From Candidatus Manganitrophaceae bacterium (GTDB lineage: Bacteria > Nitrospirota > Nitrospiria > SBBL01 > Manganitrophaceae): a stretch of DNA of 64,000 nt. This document shows, piece after piece, positions 24,005 to 32,318 of the stretch. Made by a program: the position numbers and the translations under genes. The notes beneath the pieces were generated by a model. It worked only from the letters and a program-made list of their open reading frames with translations, was not told the origin of the DNA and made no database searches. The stretch spans positions 124,001-188,000 of the forward strand of contig JACQEZ010000020.1 of assembly GCA_016200325.1 (NCBI GenBank), in the 5' to 3' direction. Every line of letters begins with the position of its first letter. Positions within the stretch are counted from its first letter, which is position 1.

Positions 24005-24030
24005 CGCTTGGTATAACCCAAGCGTTTATT
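24005..24030 (+). terminator. Candidate intrinsic terminator of the exopolysaccharide operon
   Basis: A perfect 7-bp stem (CGCTTGG / CCAAGCG) with a 6-nt loop is followed by TTTATT on the + strand. It lies 86 bp after the last gene of the operon and abuts the stop codon of the convergent beta-helix gene. The T tract is short, so efficiency is uncertain. Confidence 0.5.
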
Positions 24031-25456
24031 GCACCCGAAGATTGGTAGGCGGCTGTATGGTTTTGGTCGAACCGCCGGTTCCCACCGTTGTCACATCTGC
24101 GCCCATATTGGTGCCTCCCTTGCCTGTTCCCCGGCTCGGCGAATTGCTTGCCAAGGCGAAATCGGTCAGCTGGGTCAGGAGTCCTGATCCATTGGTGAAG
24201 TTCGGATTGGATGCAATGGAGTGGGTATCCGGATTGAGTCCACCAATCAGTTCGCCGGATGTTTTCCACTCCGCCAAACTACCGAAGACATCACTTGGAT
24301 TATATACTTTTGCGATGACTTGAAAGGAATACGATCCGAAGTTGTTATAATCAGACTCTGCAATAGAGTAATCGGACGGAGCATACCCATAGGAGAGCTG
24401 ATTGCCGGGGCATCCTTGCATGATGTTGTTATAGAAATGGCTGCCATGGGATTCGGTGATGAATACACAAATCGAGTCGGGGACAATGCCATAAAACGTA
24501 TTATTATATACCACCAGATTATCCGCGTTCGATCCTGTTTCCCCAAAGATATGAAGTCCGGAGTAGGTGTTATTGGCAATCACATTGTTATAAATCTGAT
24601 GATTCGTCGCATTCCGAGCCGCCGTTGTGACGTAGGGAGTTATGTAAATTGACATCTGATTTCCATGCAGCCAATTGTTTCTAATTATCCAAGAATCGGT
24701 GGCTGATTTTAAATAAACACCGCTCTCGGCGTTGTAGACTTCATTATTCTCAATGGTTACTTTATTGCTGTCATAAGATTTAATTCCGCTGATCCCCTGG
24801 TAACCGTCGGTCGATCGCGCGTTATATAATTTGCATTTCTGAATTAATATATTGTCTGCGCTGTCGATGCGAACGGTTTCCCGATTGTCCTGCGTGCTGA
24901 TCGGCGTGCTCCCGCCATTGATATCACAGTTTTTTAATGTGATACCGACCGACCGAATCGTTTGATCGTCGCTGCCGATATGGATTCTTGCCATCTTCGT
25001 TCCGTTATCTGATTGGAGTTTAAATCCGTCAAAAACAATGTAGTTGCGTCCAAAAGTTCCAAAAATAGTTGCATAATCTGAGACATCCGCAGAGCCCCCC
25101 GCAGTGCCGTTGAAAAGAGGGGTTTCTCCCGCGTAGGCCGCAAATGTGATCGGGCTGGTTGCTGTTCCAGAATTGGCAGGTTCATAGTATCCATGGTAGG
25201 TGCTTCCCGCGTTTTTTGCAGGGACATTATACGTTCCACCCCTGAAGTAGACAATGTCACCTGCGCTGGCGTTATTAAAAGCGGTTTGAATCGGGCAGGG
25301 GGTGTTTATATTGGTACATTGCGTCCACGTAGCGGTACCATTATTAGAAACATAGTAGGTTGCAGCCTGTGAGGTCTCCGCGCAGACGATAAAGAACGTT
25401 CCGACGAAGAAGAGCATGAAAAGGGTTTTGAGTTTGTTTCTCTTTGAAGATATCAT
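24026..25456 (-). CDS. Secreted right-handed parallel beta-helix protein
   Basis: A 476-residue exported protein. A signal peptide with a long hydrophobic core ends at a SQA-AT site around residue 30. The mature chain opens TYYVSNNGT and PIQTAFNNASAGDIVYFRGGTY, the usual start of pectate-lyase-like beta-helix proteins, and contains many N-N-x-[IV] turns such as ENNEVYNAESGVYL, RNNWLHGN and YNNVIANNTYSGLHI. It ends in a short KTIQPPTNLRVQ tail without a sorting signal. Probably a polysaccharide-binding, -lyase or -epimerase-like matrix protein; no catalytic residues can be assigned. The second ATG (25456) is chosen because AGGAGG lies 6 nt upstream. Expression is controlled by the riboswitch and terminator just upstream. 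Confidence 0.88.
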   Translation of the reverse strand: MISSKRNKLKTLFMLFFVGTFFIVCAETSQAATYYVSNNGTATWTQCTNINTPCPIQTAFNNASAGDIVYFRGGTYNVPAKNAGSTYHGYYEPANSGTATSPITFAAYAGETPLFNGTAGGSADVSDYATIFGTFGRNYIVFDGFKLQSDNGTKMARIHIGSDDQTIRSVGITLKNCDINGGSTPISTQDNRETVRIDSADNILIQKCKLYNARSTDGYQGISGIKSYDSNKVTIENNEVYNAESGVYLKSATDSWIIRNNWLHGNQMSIYITPYVTTAARNATNHQIYNNVIANNTYSGLHIFGETGSNADNLVVYNNTFYGIVPDSICVFITESHGSHFYNNIMQGCPGNQLSYGYAPSDYSIAESDYNNFGSYSFQVIAKVYNPSDVFGSLAEWKTSGELIGGLNPDTHSIASNPNFTNGSGLLTQLTDFALASNSPSRGTGKGGTNMGADVTTVGTGGSTKTIQPPTNLRVQ

Positions 25457-25472
25457 CAACATCCTCCTGGTA

Positions 25473-25507
25473 AATAATAAGCCGCCAAAGTGGTTTCCTC
25501 TGGCGGC
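25473..25507 (-). terminator. Intrinsic terminator / expression platform of riboswitch 1
   Basis: On the minus strand GCCGCCA pairs with TGGCGGC, followed by TTATTATT. The 5' arm of this stem is the end of the aptamer and directly abuts its P1 3' strand, so terminator formation competes with closure of the aptamer. The beta-helix ribosome-binding site (25463-25468) lies immediately downstream. The T tract is interrupted by A, so it may be weaker than the equivalent at 28207. Confidence 0.7.
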
Positions 25508-25656
25508 TCGGCGGACATGGAAGAAAACAGCTTAAAGTTTTGAGTGTGGGCTTAGAATCGAGTTGGCTTCTCACGACTCAAAAGTCAAAACTGTTTTCTT
25601 CTTTAGCCCCGTGACTCTGCGTCCCCATCTTTCGATGGGTTTGCTCTGAGCAAAGG
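25497..25656 (-). ncRNA. GEMM-I cyclic-dinucleotide riboswitch (riboswitch 1)
   Basis: The minus strand carries the GEMM-I core: CAGAGCAAACC, a CCATC-GAAA-GATGG tetraloop hairpin, GGACGCAGAGTC, and the distal GCCGAGCCGCC. P1 is CCTTTG (25656-25651) pairing with CAGAGG (25502-25497). The second arm is extended by an 11-bp helix GAAGAAAACAG / CTGTTTTCTTC. By alignment with the Vibrio Vc2 aptamer, the ligand-contacting base at Vc2 position 20 is A here rather than G; established work links A at this position to recognition of 3',3'-cyclic AMP-GMP in Geobacter-type GEMM-Ib switches. The ligand is therefore either c-di-GMP or cGAMP. P1 closure would block the downstream terminator, predicting an ON switch for the beta-helix gene. 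Confidence 0.87.
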
Positions 25657-25904: not shown

Positions 25905-28181
25905 CTAATGATTCGACCGATATTGTTTGGAGCTTGTTTTCAGACCCTTGCGAAGAATGCCGAAGACGATTGCGACGAGAATCGCAATAAAATCGGCCGA
26001 TCCGCCCGGTCCCGCAGTCTGTCCTGAGGTCGGGACGATCATCGCACAACCTCCGCCTGATCCTTCCGATGTGCTCTGTCCTGCCGTCACCCCTCTTTGT
26101 TGAGACAATCCCAGCGGGGTCGCCGAGGTCTGTGCCGTGTGTTGATAATTCCCTTGGCCGTCATAGCTGGAGGCGGAATAGTAGTAGGTGATATTGTTTT
26201 GAAGCCCGGCCTGGATGACGCTCATCGTCGTATTCGGTGAGCCGCTGAAGTCTCCTAAAACTTCTCCGTCATTCAGATCGGTCGGGAAATGATCGGTCCG
26301 AAACAGAATGCGGACACCGACGAAATCGGCGTCGGGCGGATTCGTCCAGTTCAGCGTGATCTGACCGGTGCTGCCGACGGCGGTGAAATTCTGGATGTCC
26401 GCCGGCGGGACGGTGTCGGTTACAGAAGGGGTGGTCAACGTGTGGTCTTCTGAGACGGTTAAATTGCCCGCCGCATCGGCGCTCTTGACCCGATAATGGT
26501 AGAGCGTGCCCGATTGAAGGGTGGTGAGTGTTTGCGCGTGGCTATTGAGCAGGGTCGCGTTCATTCCGCTGCTGTTGCCGTAAGCAGAGGTCGGGCCGAA
26601 TTCAACCTCGCTCGTTGCAGGCTCGTCGCTGCCCCAAGTGATGATCACGCTCACCGGTGTCATATCTCGGGTGTCGATGGCCGAGAGTGCCGGTCCGGTC
26701 GTATCGGGCGGCTGCGATGAAATCTGTTGTGTGGTAAAAGTGCCGTCACCTGAAACCGATGTGTTGCCGACGCCGTCTTTGCTTAAGATTCGATAATGGT
26801 AGGTGGTCGCGGAATTCAGGTTGGTGAGCGCTTGGCTGTGGTTGGTCAACAATGTCGTATTGAGCGGGGAGAGCGAGCCATAAGAGGAGGTCGGCCCATA
26901 CTCCACTTGAGAGGTCGCCGCCTCATCGGTATTCCAGCTGATTGTGGCGCCCGTTGCCGTGATATTGCCTGCGGCGCTGCCCGAGATCAACGGGGGGGTC
27001 GTGTCGGGGGTTCCTGAGGTGGTAAATGTCTTGTCTGCCGAATTGGTTGAATTTCCTGCGGCGTCCTTGCTCACCACACGGTAATGGTACGTGGTTGAGG
27101 CGATTAGATTCGTGAGCGTTCGACTGTGGCTTGTCACCAAAGTGGTATCGACCGGAGAGGCGGAGCCATAGGTCGAAGTGGTTCCATAGTTGACCTGAGA
27201 ACTTGCCGCTTCATTGGTGCTCCAGGTAATGACAGCGGAAGTGGCGGTCATGTTGCTTGCGACAATGCCCGAAACCACCGGCGCCGTTGTGTCGGGCAGG
27301 GCGGTGGTCGTAAACGTATTGTCACCGGACGTGGCAAGGTTGCCGGCGGCATCTCGGCTGAGGACCCGGAAATGGTAGATCGTAGAAGGGGTCAATCCGG
27401 TGATCGATTGGCTGTGCGAAGGGGTTAACGCCGTATTTTGAACGGTTGCGCTTCCATAGCCGATCGTCACGCCGTATTGAATCTGGGTATCGGACGTTTC
27501 GTTGGTGGTCCATGAAATGGTCGCCCCGGTGGTCGAAACGTTGGTCGTCGAGATCCCGGAGATCGCCGGCGGCGTGGTATCGGGCGCAGCGGCGGTGGTA
27601 AAGGTGTTATCCCCGGAAATTCCGACATTGCCGGCGGCGTCCCGGCTCCGGACACGGTAATGATAGATCGTTGATGGGCTCAAGTTGGTAAGGGTTTGGC
27701 CATGGCTGGTCGTCAGTGTTGAGTTGAGCGAGGAGGATGCGCCGTAAGCCGTCGTGATCCCGTAGTCCACTTGAGTGGTGGCGGTTTCATTGGACGTCCA
27801 GGAGAGGACGGCGCTGCTGCTTGTAATGTTCGCGGCGGTGATTCCGGAAAGGACCGGAGGGGTCGTATCAGCGAAGCTTTTAAGAACCTCATTTGAAAAG
27901 TCGCTTTCTCCGCCGGCGGTGTTATAAGCGGTCACCGCGAAGTAATAGGTCTGGGTTCCCAATCCAGTTATGGTATAAGAGGTCTGGTTTCCAACATCAA
28001 TCGGGGCGCCATAGCTTCCGGGGGAGGGACCATAGTAGATTTTATATCCGGCCAGATCGGCCTCCGTATTTGGATTCCAGGAAAGCAACGCGTTGCCGGC
28101 GTTTGCAAGGGCGGTCCAGCCAAAGAGGGTGATCATCGCTGTTAAGACGACTGCTCCATACTTGCTCATTAACCGTTGCAT
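25905..28181 (-). CDS. Secreted fibronectin type III repeat protein with Cys-type C-terminal anchor
   Basis: A 758-residue exported protein. The ATG at 28181 follows GGAGG and starts a signal peptide (cleavage near ALANA, residue 28); an upstream extension to 28343 runs through the riboswitch and is rejected. Domains: one FN3 (about 30-100), five near-identical-length repeats of about 96 residues each starting D-T-T-x-P (105-588), and a last FN3 (589-690). The repeats share HYRVxSxDAAGN and TTxxxxH cores. The C-terminus is tripartite: GGGC (709-712), a spacer, a hydrophobic helix (about 729-745) and basic residues. That resembles Cys-containing C-terminal sorting signals rather than PEP-CTERM. 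A surface or matrix adhesin role is likely. Two riboswitches precede it. Confidence 0.9.
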   Translation of the reverse strand: MQRLMSKYGAVVLTAMITLFGWTALANAGNALLSWNPNTEADLAGYKIYYGPSPGSYGAPIDVGNQTSYTITGLGTQTYYFAVTAYNTAGGESDFSNEVLKSFADTTPPVLSGITAANITSSSAVLSWTSNETATTQVDYGITTAYGASSSLNSTLTTSHGQTLTNLSPSTIYHYRVRSRDAAGNVGISGDNTFTTAAAPDTTPPAISGISTTNVSTTGATISWTTNETSDTQIQYGVTIGYGSATVQNTALTPSHSQSITGLTPSTIYHFRVLSRDAAGNLATSGDNTFTTTALPDTTAPVVSGIVASNMTATSAVITWSTNEAASSQVNYGTTSTYGSASPVDTTLVTSHSRTLTNLIASTTYHYRVVSKDAAGNSTNSADKTFTTSGTPDTTPPLISGSAAGNITATGATISWNTDEAATSQVEYGPTSSYGSLSPLNTTLLTNHSQALTNLNSATTYHYRILSKDGVGNTSVSGDGTFTTQQISSQPPDTTGPALSAIDTRDMTPVSVIITWGSDEPATSEVEFGPTSAYGNSSGMNATLLNSHAQTLTTLQSGTLYHYRVKSADAAGNLTVSEDHTLTTPSVTDTVPPADIQNFTAVGSTGQITLNWTNPPDADFVGVRILFRTDHFPTDLNDGEVLGDFSGSPNTTMSVIQAGLQNNITYYYSASSYDGQGNYQHTAQTSATPLGLSQQRGVTAGQSTSEGSGGGCAMIVPTSGQTAGPGGSADFIAILVAIVFGILRKGLKTSSKQYRSNH
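26418..27869 (-). repeat. Five tandem ~290-bp units encoding FN3-like repeats
   Basis: Five consecutive units of 96, 96, 96, 100 and 96 codons within the fibronectin gene, each beginning D-T-T and including a conserved YHxRVxSxD block. They have diverged at many positions, so this is an old protein-domain expansion rather than a recent DNA duplication. Confidence 0.85.
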
Positions 28182-28206: not shown

Positions 28207-28238
28207 AAAAAAGCCGCCAACGAATTTCCTTTGGCGGC
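28207..28238 (-). terminator. Intrinsic terminator / expression platform of riboswitch 2
   Basis: On the minus strand GCCGCCAA and TTGGCGGC form a perfect 8-bp stem with a 10-nt loop, followed by six T. The 5' arm shares the CCAA bases with the P1 3' strand of riboswitch 2 (CAAAGG at 28233-28228), making aptamer closure and termination mutually exclusive. The fibronectin-gene ribosome site lies about 15 nt beyond. Confidence 0.88.
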
Positions 28239-28405
28239 TCGGCGGGCATGGCGTTTAGGAGAGGCGGGGGGCCGTCCGGTCCGTTTCAGCGAAACTTCCG
28301 ATGCCCCACACCCCATGCTCCGACCCGGCAGAGCCGGATCCAAGCGTCGCTTTAGCCCCGTTGCTCTGCGTCCCCACCTTTCGATGGGTTTGCTCTGAGC
28401 AAAGG
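28228..28405 (-). ncRNA. GEMM-I cyclic-dinucleotide riboswitch (riboswitch 2)
   Basis: Same core as riboswitch 1 on the minus strand: CCTTTG P1 strand (28405-28400), CAGAGCAAACC, CCATC-GAAA-GGTGG hairpin, GGACGCAGAGC, ACGGGGCTAAAGC and the distal GCCGAGCCGCC with CAAAGG closing P1. The arm between the two core halves is unusually long (about 110 nt) and contains further hairpins such as GATCCGGC / GCCGGGTC and GTTTC / GAAAC. The base aligned with Vc2 position 20 is again A, suggesting cGAMP or relaxed specificity. P1 overlaps the terminator, predicting that ligand turns the fibronectin-repeat gene on. Confidence 0.88.
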
Positions 28406-28418
28406 TCGGATATCGATT

Positions 28419-28440
28419 AAAAAATCATTCCTCGGAATGG
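28419..28440 (-). terminator. Candidate terminator between riboswitches 3 and 2
   Basis: On the minus strand CATTC-CGAG-GAATG forms a 5-bp stem with a tetraloop, followed by A and six T. It lies downstream of riboswitch 3 and upstream of riboswitch 2, so it could be the output of riboswitch 3. The stem is short. Confidence 0.5.
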
Positions 28441-28469
28441 GCCCTTGCCTAAAGATGCGGCTGCATCCT

Positions 28470-28563
28470 CCTGGCAACCAGACGAACCCTGGGGAGTGAA
28501 CTCACCCCCCCACATAGGTCTCTTGGCTTTGCGTCCTGCCCTCTCGGGTCGTTTGCCCTTTTC
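28470..28563 (-). ncRNA. GEMM-like cyclic-dinucleotide riboswitch (riboswitch 3, tandem)
   Basis: The minus strand has AAAAGGGCAAAC, a GAGA tetraloop hairpin (CCC/GGG with two mismatches toward its base), GGACGCAAAGCC, then an arm with CC-AGA / TCT-GG and ACC / GGT pairing closed by a G-rich/C-rich hairpin, and GGTTGCC at the 3' side. These are the invariant blocks of GEMM-I aptamers. In contrast to riboswitches 1 and 2, the base aligned with Vc2 position 20 is G, the canonical c-di-GMP type. I could not find a strong P1 helix, and the hairpin mismatches weaken the call, so it may be degenerate. It lies about 65 nt upstream of riboswitch 2 in the same orientation. Confidence 0.68.
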
Positions 28564-28843
28564 GCGAGTAATAGTGATATGCTATGACAGGGTATACGCA
28601 AACGATATGCCTGTGGGGAGTAAAAGGGGAAGAGGATGGAATCTATCCCACCTTTATTGAAGGAGTTCTTTAAAGTTGAACAAGCATGTCCGATCCGGCA
28701 AGCCTGAATTTCGGGGCAAAACGCACTTTTTGTCCGATCGGTATGAAAAGGGTTACATAAGAACACCCCTCGATCGGGGGGGTTGTCCGGAGACCTCCAT
28801 TTTAATAAAATAATCTGCTTCTAACCCAAGGTCGGTTTTTTAT

Positions 28844-30979
28844 ATGATTCAATATTTTATTCCATTTTTAAACGGTCTTCTCTGTGTCGGATTGGGCGCT
28901 TTTGTCCTGTCCGAAAACCGTCGATCTTTCATCCATCAGACCTTTTTCTTTGGAATGATTGTTTTGGCCATGGAAGAACTCTTTAACGGGATGGTCATGA
29001 AATCCGGCCTCCCGACGGAAGTTCTCTACTGGAGAAGATGGGAGCTCACGGCCGTCGCTCCTCTCTCCGCTGTTTGGCTTTTGTTTAGTGTCAGTTTTGG
29101 GAGATCAAACTACAAAGAGCTGATTGCAAAATGGAAATGGGTCGCCATTGCCTTTCTCCTCTTTCCCTTGTCGATGGTTACCATATTTATTGATGCCTTT
29201 TTCATATTGCCGGACCCGCTGGAGGAGAGCGCCATCTTGGTCATGCCGCTCGGATGGTCTGGCTATGCGTTTTATCTCTTCGATCTCGTCTCTTCCGTTG
29301 TAATCCTAATGAATCTGGAGGAAACCCTTCGCGCCACGGCTGGGAATAAGCGATGGCAGATCAAATTTATGATTTTGGGTGTGGGAGGACTCTTTGCCCT
29401 TGAAGTTTATACGGCCAGTCAAACCCTTCTCTTCTCGTCGATTCGATGGGGAATGGGGCCGATCAATTCATTCGCCGTGCTGGTGGCGAATGTGTTTATT
29501 ATTTTTTCCCTCATGCGCAATCGTTTCTTGGATGTTGATCTCTATTTTTCGCGCACCTTCCTTTCGAATTCGATTACCGTCGCTGTCGTCGGTGTCTACC
29601 TGTTGGCGGTCGGCATCCTTGCGAAAGCGATCGGCTTTTTCGGCGAGAACGGGGCCGTTCCAGTCGGAATGTTTTTTGTCTTTCTCTCCTTGCTTGCATT
29701 AAGTGCCCTCCTCCTCTCGGACCATCTGCGTCAGGAGTTTAAGCGATTTATCAGTCGAAATTTTTATCGATCAAGGTATGATTATCGGAAGGAGTGGATG
29801 GCATTTACGCGACAGACGACCTCCCTCGTAGAAGTTCGGGATCTCTGTTCTGTCGTGACAAAAAAAGTGGCCGAGACGCTCGGAACTCCATCCGTTACAA
29901 TTTGGTTGATTGACGAGGGAACCGATTTGGTCTCTTTGGGCGGATCGACCCTCTTTTCTGATTCCAATATTCTGGGTTTATCAAATGCAGGCAAGGTCTG
30001 GGGAGCGCTTCTTGCGATGGCTCGGGAAAATCCTGTTCCGTTTGATTTCGCTTCTCCGACTTTGGCGGCAGCGAAGCAGCTAAAAGAGTCTTATTCGGAT
30101 TATTTTGACGAGGCGAGGATTGATCACTGTGTACCGCTGATTGCAGGAAAACAGCTCCTGGGGGTCATGACATTGGGACCCCGGGTGATGAAAGAGGCAT
30201 TTTTGGTGGAGGATTATGACTTATTGAAAACGATCGCCGACCAGACGGCGGGGAGCCTCCTCAATCTCAAGCTGGCCCAGCATCTGATGAAAGCCAAAGA
30301 AATGGAAGCATTTCAGACCCTTTCCGCATTTTTTATTCACGATTTGAAAAATGTGGCGTCGATGCTCTCCCTGACCATGCGAAATCTTCCTGCCCATTTT
30401 GATAATCCCGAATTCAGGAGTGATACCCTTCGGGTCATCTCGCAGAGTGTTGGCAAGATGAATGACATGTGCAGCCGGCTCTCTCTCTTAACACGGAAGC
30501 TGGAACTGCAGCCGGCCGAAGTCGATCTGAATGAACTCACCACCGCTATATTGAGTGAGATGAACGGCTCGATCAGATCGATGCTCATTCGCAATTTCAG
30601 AACGGTTCCGAAATGTAGTGTGGACTCAGACCAAATTCGAAAAGTGATTGTAAACTTAGTCCTGAACGCAAATGACGCCGTGAGCCAACAGGGGACGATC
30701 CGTGTTGAGACCGATCAAGTCGATGAGTGCGTTGTCCTCTCCGTCACGGACAACGGCTGTGGTATTCCAAAAGAGTTCATCGAACGGGCCCTTTTTCAGC
30801 CGTTCCAGACGACGAAAAGTGAAGGGCTGGGAATCGGACTTTTTCACAGCAAGAAAATAGTCGAGGCCCATCACGGAAGAATTCAGGTCGAGAGCGAAGA
30901 GGGGGTCGGAACCACGTTCCGTGTGATCTTGCCGATCCATCAGAGTGGGCAGGTGAATGGGCGTAAATACGAAGTATAA
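28844..30979 (+). CDS. prsK: PEP-CTERM system sensor histidine kinase PrsK
   Basis: A 711-residue membrane histidine kinase. The N-terminal 280 residues hold about eight hydrophobic segments; a GAF-like domain follows (about 325-470), then the phosphoacceptor region FFIHDLKNVASMLSL and a HATPase with N-box NLVLNANDAV, G1 DNGCGIP and G2 GLGIGL. The H-D-L-K-N box and overall architecture match the kinase found next to PrsR in exosortase genomes. It presumably senses an envelope or matrix signal and phosphorylates PrsR, whose gene overlaps it by 23 bp. Confidence 0.93.
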   Translation: MIQYFIPFLNGLLCVGLGAFVLSENRRSFIHQTFFFGMIVLAMEELFNGMVMKSGLPTEVLYWRRWELTAVAPLSAVWLLFSVSFGRSNYKELIAKWKWVAIAFLLFPLSMVTIFIDAFFILPDPLEESAILVMPLGWSGYAFYLFDLVSSVVILMNLEETLRATAGNKRWQIKFMILGVGGLFALEVYTASQTLLFSSIRWGMGPINSFAVLVANVFIIFSLMRNRFLDVDLYFSRTFLSNSITVAVVGVYLLAVGILAKAIGFFGENGAVPVGMFFVFLSLLALSALLLSDHLRQEFKRFISRNFYRSRYDYRKEWMAFTRQTTSLVEVRDLCSVVTKKVAETLGTPSVTIWLIDEGTDLVSLGGSTLFSDSNILGLSNAGKVWGALLAMARENPVPFDFASPTLAAAKQLKESYSDYFDEARIDHCVPLIAGKQLLGVMTLGPRVMKEAFLVEDYDLLKTIADQTAGSLLNLKLAQHLMKAKEMEAFQTLSAFFIHDLKNVASMLSLTMRNLPAHFDNPEFRSDTLRVISQSVGKMNDMCSRLSLLTRKLELQPAEVDLNELTTAILSEMNGSIRSMLIRNFRTVPKCSVDSDQIRKVIVNLVLNANDAVSQQGTIRVETDQVDECVVLSVTDNGCGIPKEFIERALFQPFQTTKSEGLGIGLFHSKKIVEAHHGRIQVESEEGVGTTFRVILPIHQSGQVNGRKYEV

Positions 30980-32318
30980 AATTTTAATCGTCGACGACGA
31001 CGAGACGATTCGTCAGCAGATGAAATGGGCGCTGACGGACGAATATGAAGTCTTCCCGGCCGAGAACCGCAGGACGGCGATCGATCTTTTTAGGCGCGAG
31101 CTTCCTCCGGTGGTGACCCTCGACCTCGGCCTTGCCCCGCATCCGCGGGAGGCGACGGAAGGATTGCTCGCCCTCTCCGAGATGTTGGAGATCGATCCGC
31201 GCGTCAAAATTATTATTGTCAGCGGCAACGCCGACCGAGCAAATGCGTTGAAGGCGATTGAACAAGGTGCGTTTGATTTTTTCACCAAGCCGATTGAAAT
31301 CGATGAAATACGGATTACCCTTCGACGGGCGATTCATGTCTTTCAATTGGAAGAGGAGAATCGCCAATTAAAACGACGCCCGATCCAGGAAGGAAGGATG
31401 ATCGGTACGAGCCGAATGATGGAGGGGCTTTTCGCGACGATCCGAAAAGTATCAACCGCCGACATTCCTGTCCTGATTCAGGGGGAGAGCGGGACCGGAA
31501 AGGAACTCGTCGCCCAATCGATTCACCAACAGAGCGCGCGGAACACGGGGCCGTTTATTGCGATCAATTGCGGCGCGATCCCGGAGAACCTGTTGGAGAG
31601 CGAGCTGTTCGGCCATGAAAAGGGGGCCTTCACCGGCGCCCATGCGCAGCGTAAGGGGAGAATCGAATACGCGGCGGGCGGAACCCTTTTCTTGGATGAA
31701 ATCGGGGAGCTGGGGTTGGGACTCCAGGTTAAGCTCCTTCGCTTCCTTCAAGAAAAGACCATTGAGCGGGTCGGCGGAAGGGAGAGCCTTTCGATCGATG
31801 CGAGGGTCATTGCTGCCACCCATCGTGATCTGAAGGAGCGAATGGCCGGCGGCACCTTCCGAGAGGATCTTTTTTACCGATTGAGCGTGGTCTCCATCTC
31901 GGTCCCTCCATTGCGCGAAAGAAATGGAGATCTGATGTTGTTGGTCCGCGCCTTTATTTCCCGGTTTACGGAGGAGATCGGTAAGAAAGTGAAGGGGTTA
32001 ACCCCGACTGCGATTGAAGCGGTGACCGCTTACGCCTGGCCGGGGAATGTCCGAGAGTTAGAAAATAAGATCCGAAGAGGGGTGGTGATGAGTGATGGCG
32101 TGTTGCTGACCCCGGAGGATCTGGAGCTGACGGTGCCGACTGATGTGGCCCCGCTTCCCCGGCTGAAAACAGCCAGGGAGCAGCTGGAGCGGCAGCTGGT
32201 GGAGTCGGCCATGGCGCGCTTCGGCGGAAATGTGACTCAAGCGGCCTCTGCGCTCGGAATTTCCCGTCAAGCCCTCCATGATATCCTTTCAAAGCATCAG
32301 ATCGAACGTCCTTCCTAG
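30957..32318 (+). CDS. prsR: PEP-CTERM system sigma-54 response regulator PrsR
   Basis: A 453-residue NtrC-type activator. Receiver domain 1-120 has DDD at 13-15 and the phosphorylatable Asp56 in VTLDLGLAP. The AAA+ domain has Walker A GESGTGKE, the sigma-54-contacting GAFTGA loop, and LDEIGEL; the C-terminal Fis-type helix-turn-helix contains GGNVTQAASALGISRQALHD. It activates sigma-54 RNA polymerase; known targets of this family are PEP-CTERM genes, and the next gene here is one with a matching promoter. GGCAGGTGA precedes the ATG, which lies inside prsK, so expression is coupled. Confidence 0.95.
   Translation: MGVNTKYKILIVDDDETIRQQMKWALTDEYEVFPAENRRTAIDLFRRELPPVVTLDLGLAPHPREATEGLLALSEMLEIDPRVKIIIVSGNADRANALKAIEQGAFDFFTKPIEIDEIRITLRRAIHVFQLEEENRQLKRRPIQEGRMIGTSRMMEGLFATIRKVSTADIPVLIQGESGTGKELVAQSIHQQSARNTGPFIAINCGAIPENLLESELFGHEKGAFTGAHAQRKGRIEYAAGGTLFLDEIGELGLGLQVKLLRFLQEKTIERVGGRESLSIDARVIAATHRDLKERMAGGTFREDLFYRLSVVSISVPPLRERNGDLMLLVRAFISRFTEEIGKKVKGLTPTAIEAVTAYAWPGNVRELENKIRRGVVMSDGVLLTPEDLELTVPTDVAPLPRLKTAREQLERQLVESAMARFGGNVTQAASALGISRQALHDILSKHQIERPS

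Follow-up and report, generated by a model that had tools for sequence, protein, structure and literature searches.

In a 64,000-nucleotide stretch of DNA from a Candidatus Manganitrophaceae bacterium (hereafter the window), we found that a gene for a fibronectin-repeat (FN3) surface protein is preceded by two GEMM-I riboswitches in series, the first of the predicted c-di-GMP type and the second of the predicted cGAMP type. The genome belongs to the Nitrospirota and is a relative of manganese-oxidising bacteria. The mixed tandem recurs within the genus, and a series gate for c-di-GMP and cGAMP is the account that we moderately favor for the lineage. At the window locus itself the first riboswitch looks decayed, and the gate there probably leaks or has been reduced to a response to cGAMP. 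The observation made in a preliminary description of this leader is right, and it is more interesting for the lineage than for the window locus.

Two aptamers with different specificity bases share one leader

A search of the whole window against all Rfam families (cmscan) returned three matches, all to RF01051 (c-di-GMP-I / GEMM-I), all on the minus strand and all above the gathering score of 35 bits. Two of them lie in the leader of the FN3-repeat gene, namely an aptamer at 28470-28567 (52.7 bits, E = 1.9e-7) and an aptamer with a long P3 arm at 28228-28405 (39.5 bits, E = 3.2e-4 for a match covering 28324-28404). Model position 11, immediately 5' to the G21-C46 pair, corresponds to Vc2 G20; in the RF01051 alignments it is a G in 28470-28567 and an A in 28228-28405. 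The former (the G20 aptamer) is predicted to bind c-di-GMP and the latter (the A20 aptamer) to bind cGAMP. These results agree with the preliminary description, which had reported two GEMM aptamers in one leader and had read by eye an A in 28228-28405 and a G in a unit placed at 28470-28563; it is this latter unit that the covariance model scores at 52.7 bits. With the leader on the minus strand, the G20 aptamer (riboswitch 3 in that description) is transcribed before the A20 aptamer: the transcript runs from 28567 to 28470, then from 28405 to 28228, and then to the start codon of the FN3-repeat gene (ATG at 28181).

The gene after the tandem (25905-28181, minus strand) encodes, by its translation, a secreted FN3-repeat protein of 758 aa (Pfam fn3, E = 5.8e-39) that belongs to a paralogous family in the genome. 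The third aptamer (25499-25655, minus strand, 50.2 bits) is a single GEMM-I unit ahead of the next gene; it has an A at model position 11, and a terminator overlaps its 3' end (25479-25509, minus strand). The gene under this aptamer (24026-25462, minus strand) encodes a secreted parallel beta-helix (NosD-like) protein with Pfam NosD/Beta_helix matches. PrsK (TIGR02916, 416.6 bits, cut-off 300) and PrsR (TIGR02915, 599 bits, cut-off 502.6) of the XrtA/PEP-CTERM system, both identified with NCBIfam, are divergent neighbors of the riboswitch leader (28844-32318, plus strand). An XrtA/PEP-CTERM-type exopolysaccharide cluster lies on the other side (~0.5-23 kb), with PEP-CTERM-type glycosyltransferase and O-ligase matches that are mostly below cut-off.

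The A20 unit has the geometry of an ON switch

In the window, P1, P2 and the GNRA loop of the A20 unit are intact, and P1 is a perfect 6-bp helix (CCUUUG at 28405-28400 paired with CAAAGG at 28233-28228). We rejected the 3' end given by Rfam for this aptamer (28324), as the real 3' strand lies ~95 nt further on, past the long P3 arm; Rfam misplaced the 3' half because of ~100 nt of extra P3. The span 28228-28405 in the preliminary description fits better, with the perfect P1 closing there.

A terminator follows at 28207-28240 (minus strand, -17.0 kcal/mol, then U6), and its 5' arm consists of the P1 3' strand CAAAGG together with upstream GAGCCGCC. This overlap between P1 and the terminator is present in all mixed tandems of the genus (5/5). 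A ligand that holds P1 together should block the terminator, so the A20 unit should be an ON switch that works by direct overlap; we infer this dependence on ligand from sequence and folding energy.

The P3 arm of the A20 aptamer (~100 nt; 28250-28345, minus strand) has similar sequence in a paralogous leader of the same genome (G000:C17:39508-39587) and in a congener (L085, G003 C517). A different P3 insert, composed of imperfect GGGTGTAGGGGGTAGGG repeats, occupies the same place in other A20 leaders of the congeners G001 and G005. From these sequences, P3 of A20 aptamers would appear to behave as if it were a landing site for repeat elements.

The mixed tandem recurs in the genus

A covariance search of the genome found 14 GEMM-I aptamers above cut-off, 11 with A20 and 3 with G20. 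Four tandem pairs are present, two of which run from G20 to A20 (the window and C16:34892/35063) and two from A20 to A20 (both on C17). Within the family sample (six genomes, one genus), the G20-to-A20 tandem was found, each time ahead of an FN3 gene, at five loci in four genomes, that is, in the window, at the second locus of the same genome (G000 C16:34892/35063) and in three congeners (G001 1017732/1017891, G003 C517:10415/10583 and G005 3347788/3347666). At all five loci, only 10-19 nt separate the first U-tract from the second P1. This spacing leaves little room for a promoter, and the A20 unit thus probably relies on read-through of the G20 unit. At the C16 locus and in the relatives, a separate terminator stands after each aptamer, in series. 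The FN3 gene past the intact tandem on C16 (L101, G000:C16:35197-39458) matches the window FN3 protein in several frames and contains one stop codon, which points to frameshifts or to misassembly of a repetitive gene.

The G20 unit uses a separate terminator

Seven other G20 copies in the genus carry, shortly past the aptamer, a terminator with a stem of at least 8 bp (-14.4 to -17.7 kcal/mol), and comparison of the genus copies revealed a compensatory A-U to G-C change in this stem. MFE folds also revealed a hairpin, named hairpin H (UGCC..GAUGC/GCAUC..GGCA; 28446-28476, minus strand, in the window), whose inner 5 bp are invariant in eight copies. The 5' side of hairpin H is the 3' strand of the G20 aptamer, so the folded aptamer and the full hairpin are mutually exclusive. 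Hairpin H and the G20-unit terminator are compatible in folds and do not compete. When the terminator was forbidden in folds of the seven relatives and the window, we found no antiterminator for this platform and only hairpin H appeared. The best-matching family of the G20 aptamers was RF03167 (c-di-GMP-I-GGC) in the congeners (L085, L071 and L095) and RF01051 in the window and C16 copies.

In contrast to the A20 unit, the G20 unit has no overlap between aptamer and terminator. This layout would suit an OFF switch, which would make the gate 'cGAMP AND NOT c-di-GMP', and a GEMM-I OFF switch that acts at transcription is known (Cd1; PMC9262584). However, the folds show no antiterminator for ligand binding to remove, and we regard an OFF sense of the G20 unit as rather unlikely.

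The G20 unit appears decayed in the window

In the window, the terminator of the G20 unit is reduced to a remnant (CAUUC-CGAG-GAAUG-A-U6; 28419-28439, minus strand) with a 5-bp stem of -4.5 kcal/mol. A terminator for each aptamer, as described earlier, is therefore found at this locus for the A20 unit but not, beyond this remnant, for the G20 unit. The aptamer is also affected: a G.A and an A.C mismatch interrupt the P2 hairpin, and P1 has two mismatches of its own, defects that are absent from most relatives. In the window unit 2/5 pairs are broken in P1, 2/8 in P2 and 2/9 in the terminator, versus 0-1 per helix in the other copies, which amounts to six broken pairs versus one or two in each other copy. 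Earlier doubts about this unit, which concerned two mismatches in the first hairpin and a poor P1, were well founded, and the defects are largely specific to the window copy.

From one assembled sequence, the first switch thus looks decayed at the window locus, and the chances that it has stopped working are about even. We give the same even chance to the G20 unit being a dead relic here, such that only the A20 switch works and the window has no gate, a possibility that is compatible with a gate in the lineage. The weak terminator (-4.5 kcal/mol versus -14.4 or stronger elsewhere) and the broken pairs argue for such a relic; on the other hand, the GAGA loop, hairpin H and the nucleotides of the core are all preserved, the covariance model gives 52.7 bits, and even a short stem, with U6 after it, may cause pausing or partial termination. 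The loss of a strong terminator and of two P1 pairs makes a clean two-input gate doubtful at this locus.

Candidate Hypr enzymes could supply cGAMP

A cGAMP-responsive unit would call on a source of cGAMP, which in our model is a Hypr GGDEF enzyme. The genome has 30 GGDEF loci, and in 2/30 a Ser replaces Asp at the selectivity position with the GGDEF motif intact. One (G000:C16:149037-149513) is inside a GAF-GGDEF protein at 149025-150161, and the other (G000:C20:74262-74786), also of a GAF-GGDEF protein, is on the same contig as the window and ~50 kb before it. The Ser lies in the motifs GHLMGS/GHLTGS of the two proteins. For both, the top solved structure is 6D9M, the Hypr domain of GacA (E = 1e-50 for L029, versus 2.9e-33 for the next structure, and 1.3e-22 for the other protein). 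The Hypr signature is Ser348, and residue 304 is a second determinant (PMC6456294); counted on alignments, the equivalent of residue 304 is Phe in G000:C16:149025-150161 and Asp in C20:74262-74786. These candidate Hypr synthases are a plausible source of cGAMP in this genome.

Among 148 Nitrospirota genomes, the Hypr motif is present in 28/31 genomes with an A20 core versus 39/117 without one (Fisher p = 7e-9), a comparison that uses exact patterns, ignores kinship and is supportive only. The exceptions are three genomes with an A20 core that lack the Hypr motif and 39 with the motif that lack an A20 core. Apart from the Nitrospira-like families of the class, Nitrospirota commonly carry the motif NDxxGHLxGS. 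The tandem, if its aptamers bind the predicted ligands, points to Hypr/cGAMP signaling in a manganese-oxidising Nitrospirota lineage, of which we found no report in the literature searched.

A mixed tandem in reverse order occurs in the Desulfobacterota

The other Nitrospirota tandems that we checked (three pairs in G147, G089 and a triple in G063) are all G20-only. Among 148 sampled genomes of the Desulfobacterota (the phylum that includes Desulfobotulus), the reverse order, A20 to G20, is present in one (G222). We thus rejected the idea that the mixed tandem is unique to this genus; its presence in G222 also indicates that the arrangement is not an accident of one genome. The A20 pocket in G222 keeps A9, A11, A12, A14 and C15 (positions mapped by hand), which are listed ligand contacts of a 3',3'-cGAMP riboswitch (PMC6274999). 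The genes downstream of the G222 tandem are of the two kinds seen in the window, namely an FN3-type gene, whose fn3 match is just below the Pfam cut-off, and a beta-helix-like gene, which has no Pfam match and is so labeled from sequence character only. After the second unit of this tandem comes a stretch that could pair with the ribosome-binding site (AGUACCUCAUG / CAUGGAGGUACU). Elsewhere in this sample, two RF03168 (c-di-GMP-I-UAU) variant aptamers stand in tandem at L331 (G285).

The base at position 20 biases selectivity without acting as a hard filter, and cGAMP riboswitches are able to bind c-di-GMP via a protonated adenine (PMC9262584), so the A20 aptamers may still bind c-di-GMP, under a single-ligand or a promiscuous reading. 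If they bound c-di-GMP alongside cGAMP or in its place, the leader would be an ordinary pseudo-cooperative c-di-GMP doublet, and c-di-GMP-I doublets are the commonest tandem riboswitches, with 347 counted as one class in a survey (PMC9481103). However, the G20/A20 difference is kept at 5/5 loci of the genus and reversed in a Desulfobacterota genome, and A20 cores co-occur with Hypr enzymes, and we consider a same-ligand tandem improbable.

A model for the leader

We propose that the leader acts as two GEMM-I riboswitches in series, a c-di-GMP-type unit (G20) followed by a cGAMP-type unit (A20), such that the polymerase would have to get past both terminators, one after the other, to reach the gene for the FN3 surface protein. 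At the A20 unit, a ligand-stabilised P1 would keep the terminator from forming (i.e., ON). In the lineage, represented by the second locus and the three congeners, the result would be a series gate with two inputs, for which 'c-di-GMP AND cGAMP' is the most likely logic. The first unit of the window copy has probably degenerated, which would leave the gene mainly under the A20 switch. We infer the ligands, the ON sense of the G20 unit, the gate logic and the decay of the window G20 unit. The gate proposed in the preliminary description gains support from two GEMM-I aptamers with differing specificity bases, from their conserved series order in the genus and from Hypr-type enzymes; the part of that proposal that becomes doubtful is a clean gate in the window.

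If both aptamers keep their predicted ligands, a single leader would read c-di-GMP and cGAMP ahead of a surface protein, and would offer a compact system in which to see how one base, at position 20, discriminates between two near-identical messengers in vivo. More tentatively, and with somewhat less than even confidence, we suggest that Candidatus Manganitrophus has a conserved RNA gate, c-di-GMP then cGAMP, that switches on FN3 surface proteins only with both messengers, and that the same logic arose or is shared, reversed, in a Desulfobacterota genome, so that RNA leaders may integrate both messengers at surface-matrix genes of metal-cycling bacteria.

Comparison with known systems

Repeated GEMM-I aptamers in one leader are known from c-di-GMP-I doublets and triplets, e.g., the triplet of Bacillus thuringiensis (PMC9481103), which differ from the present leader in that they are counted as one-ligand pseudo-cooperative systems. 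The two-input gates in the same survey include AdoCbl/c-di-GMP-I and AdoCbl/c-AMP-GMP; a c-di-GMP-I/c-AMP-GMP gate is absent from the two-input pairs of its Table 2, and the 2015 papers defining cGAMP riboswitches may describe mixed tandems. The AdoCbl/c-AMP-GMP and AdoCbl/c-di-GMP-I tandems of Desulfobacca acetoxidans (PMC9481103) share with our leader serial switches, separate terminators, proposed logic gates and the assignment of c-di-GMP or cGAMP by the position-20 base, but the partner there is a cobalamin riboswitch. The Desulfobacca A20 aptamer gained cGAMP affinity and lost little c-di-GMP affinity (PMC9481103).

On the enzyme side, G000:C16:149025-150161 shares with GacA (6D9M, PMC6456294) the GAF-GGDEF architecture, a Ser at the equivalent of residue 348 and, at that of residue 304, an amino acid other than Arg (here Phe); it is a homologue from a different phylum, with a putative activity.

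Further parallels are in Geobacter. In Geobacter sulfurreducens, a GEMM riboswitch ahead of an FN3 protein was mutated in long-term anode growth (PMC13194489), and the A20G change in Gmet_0970 switched selectivity from cGAMP to c-di-GMP (PMC6456294). Geobacter also has tandem GEMM-Ib units, e.g., upstream of GSU2885 (PMC6456294). As in our leader, two GEMM-I units are placed in series upstream of surface or extracellular genes, and a further shared feature, predicted in our leader, is the A20-type aptamer switched ON by cGAMP that a Hypr GGDEF enzyme makes. The Geobacter tandems are described as GEMM-1b pairs, whereas the pair in Candidatus Manganitrophaceae has a different specificity base in each unit.
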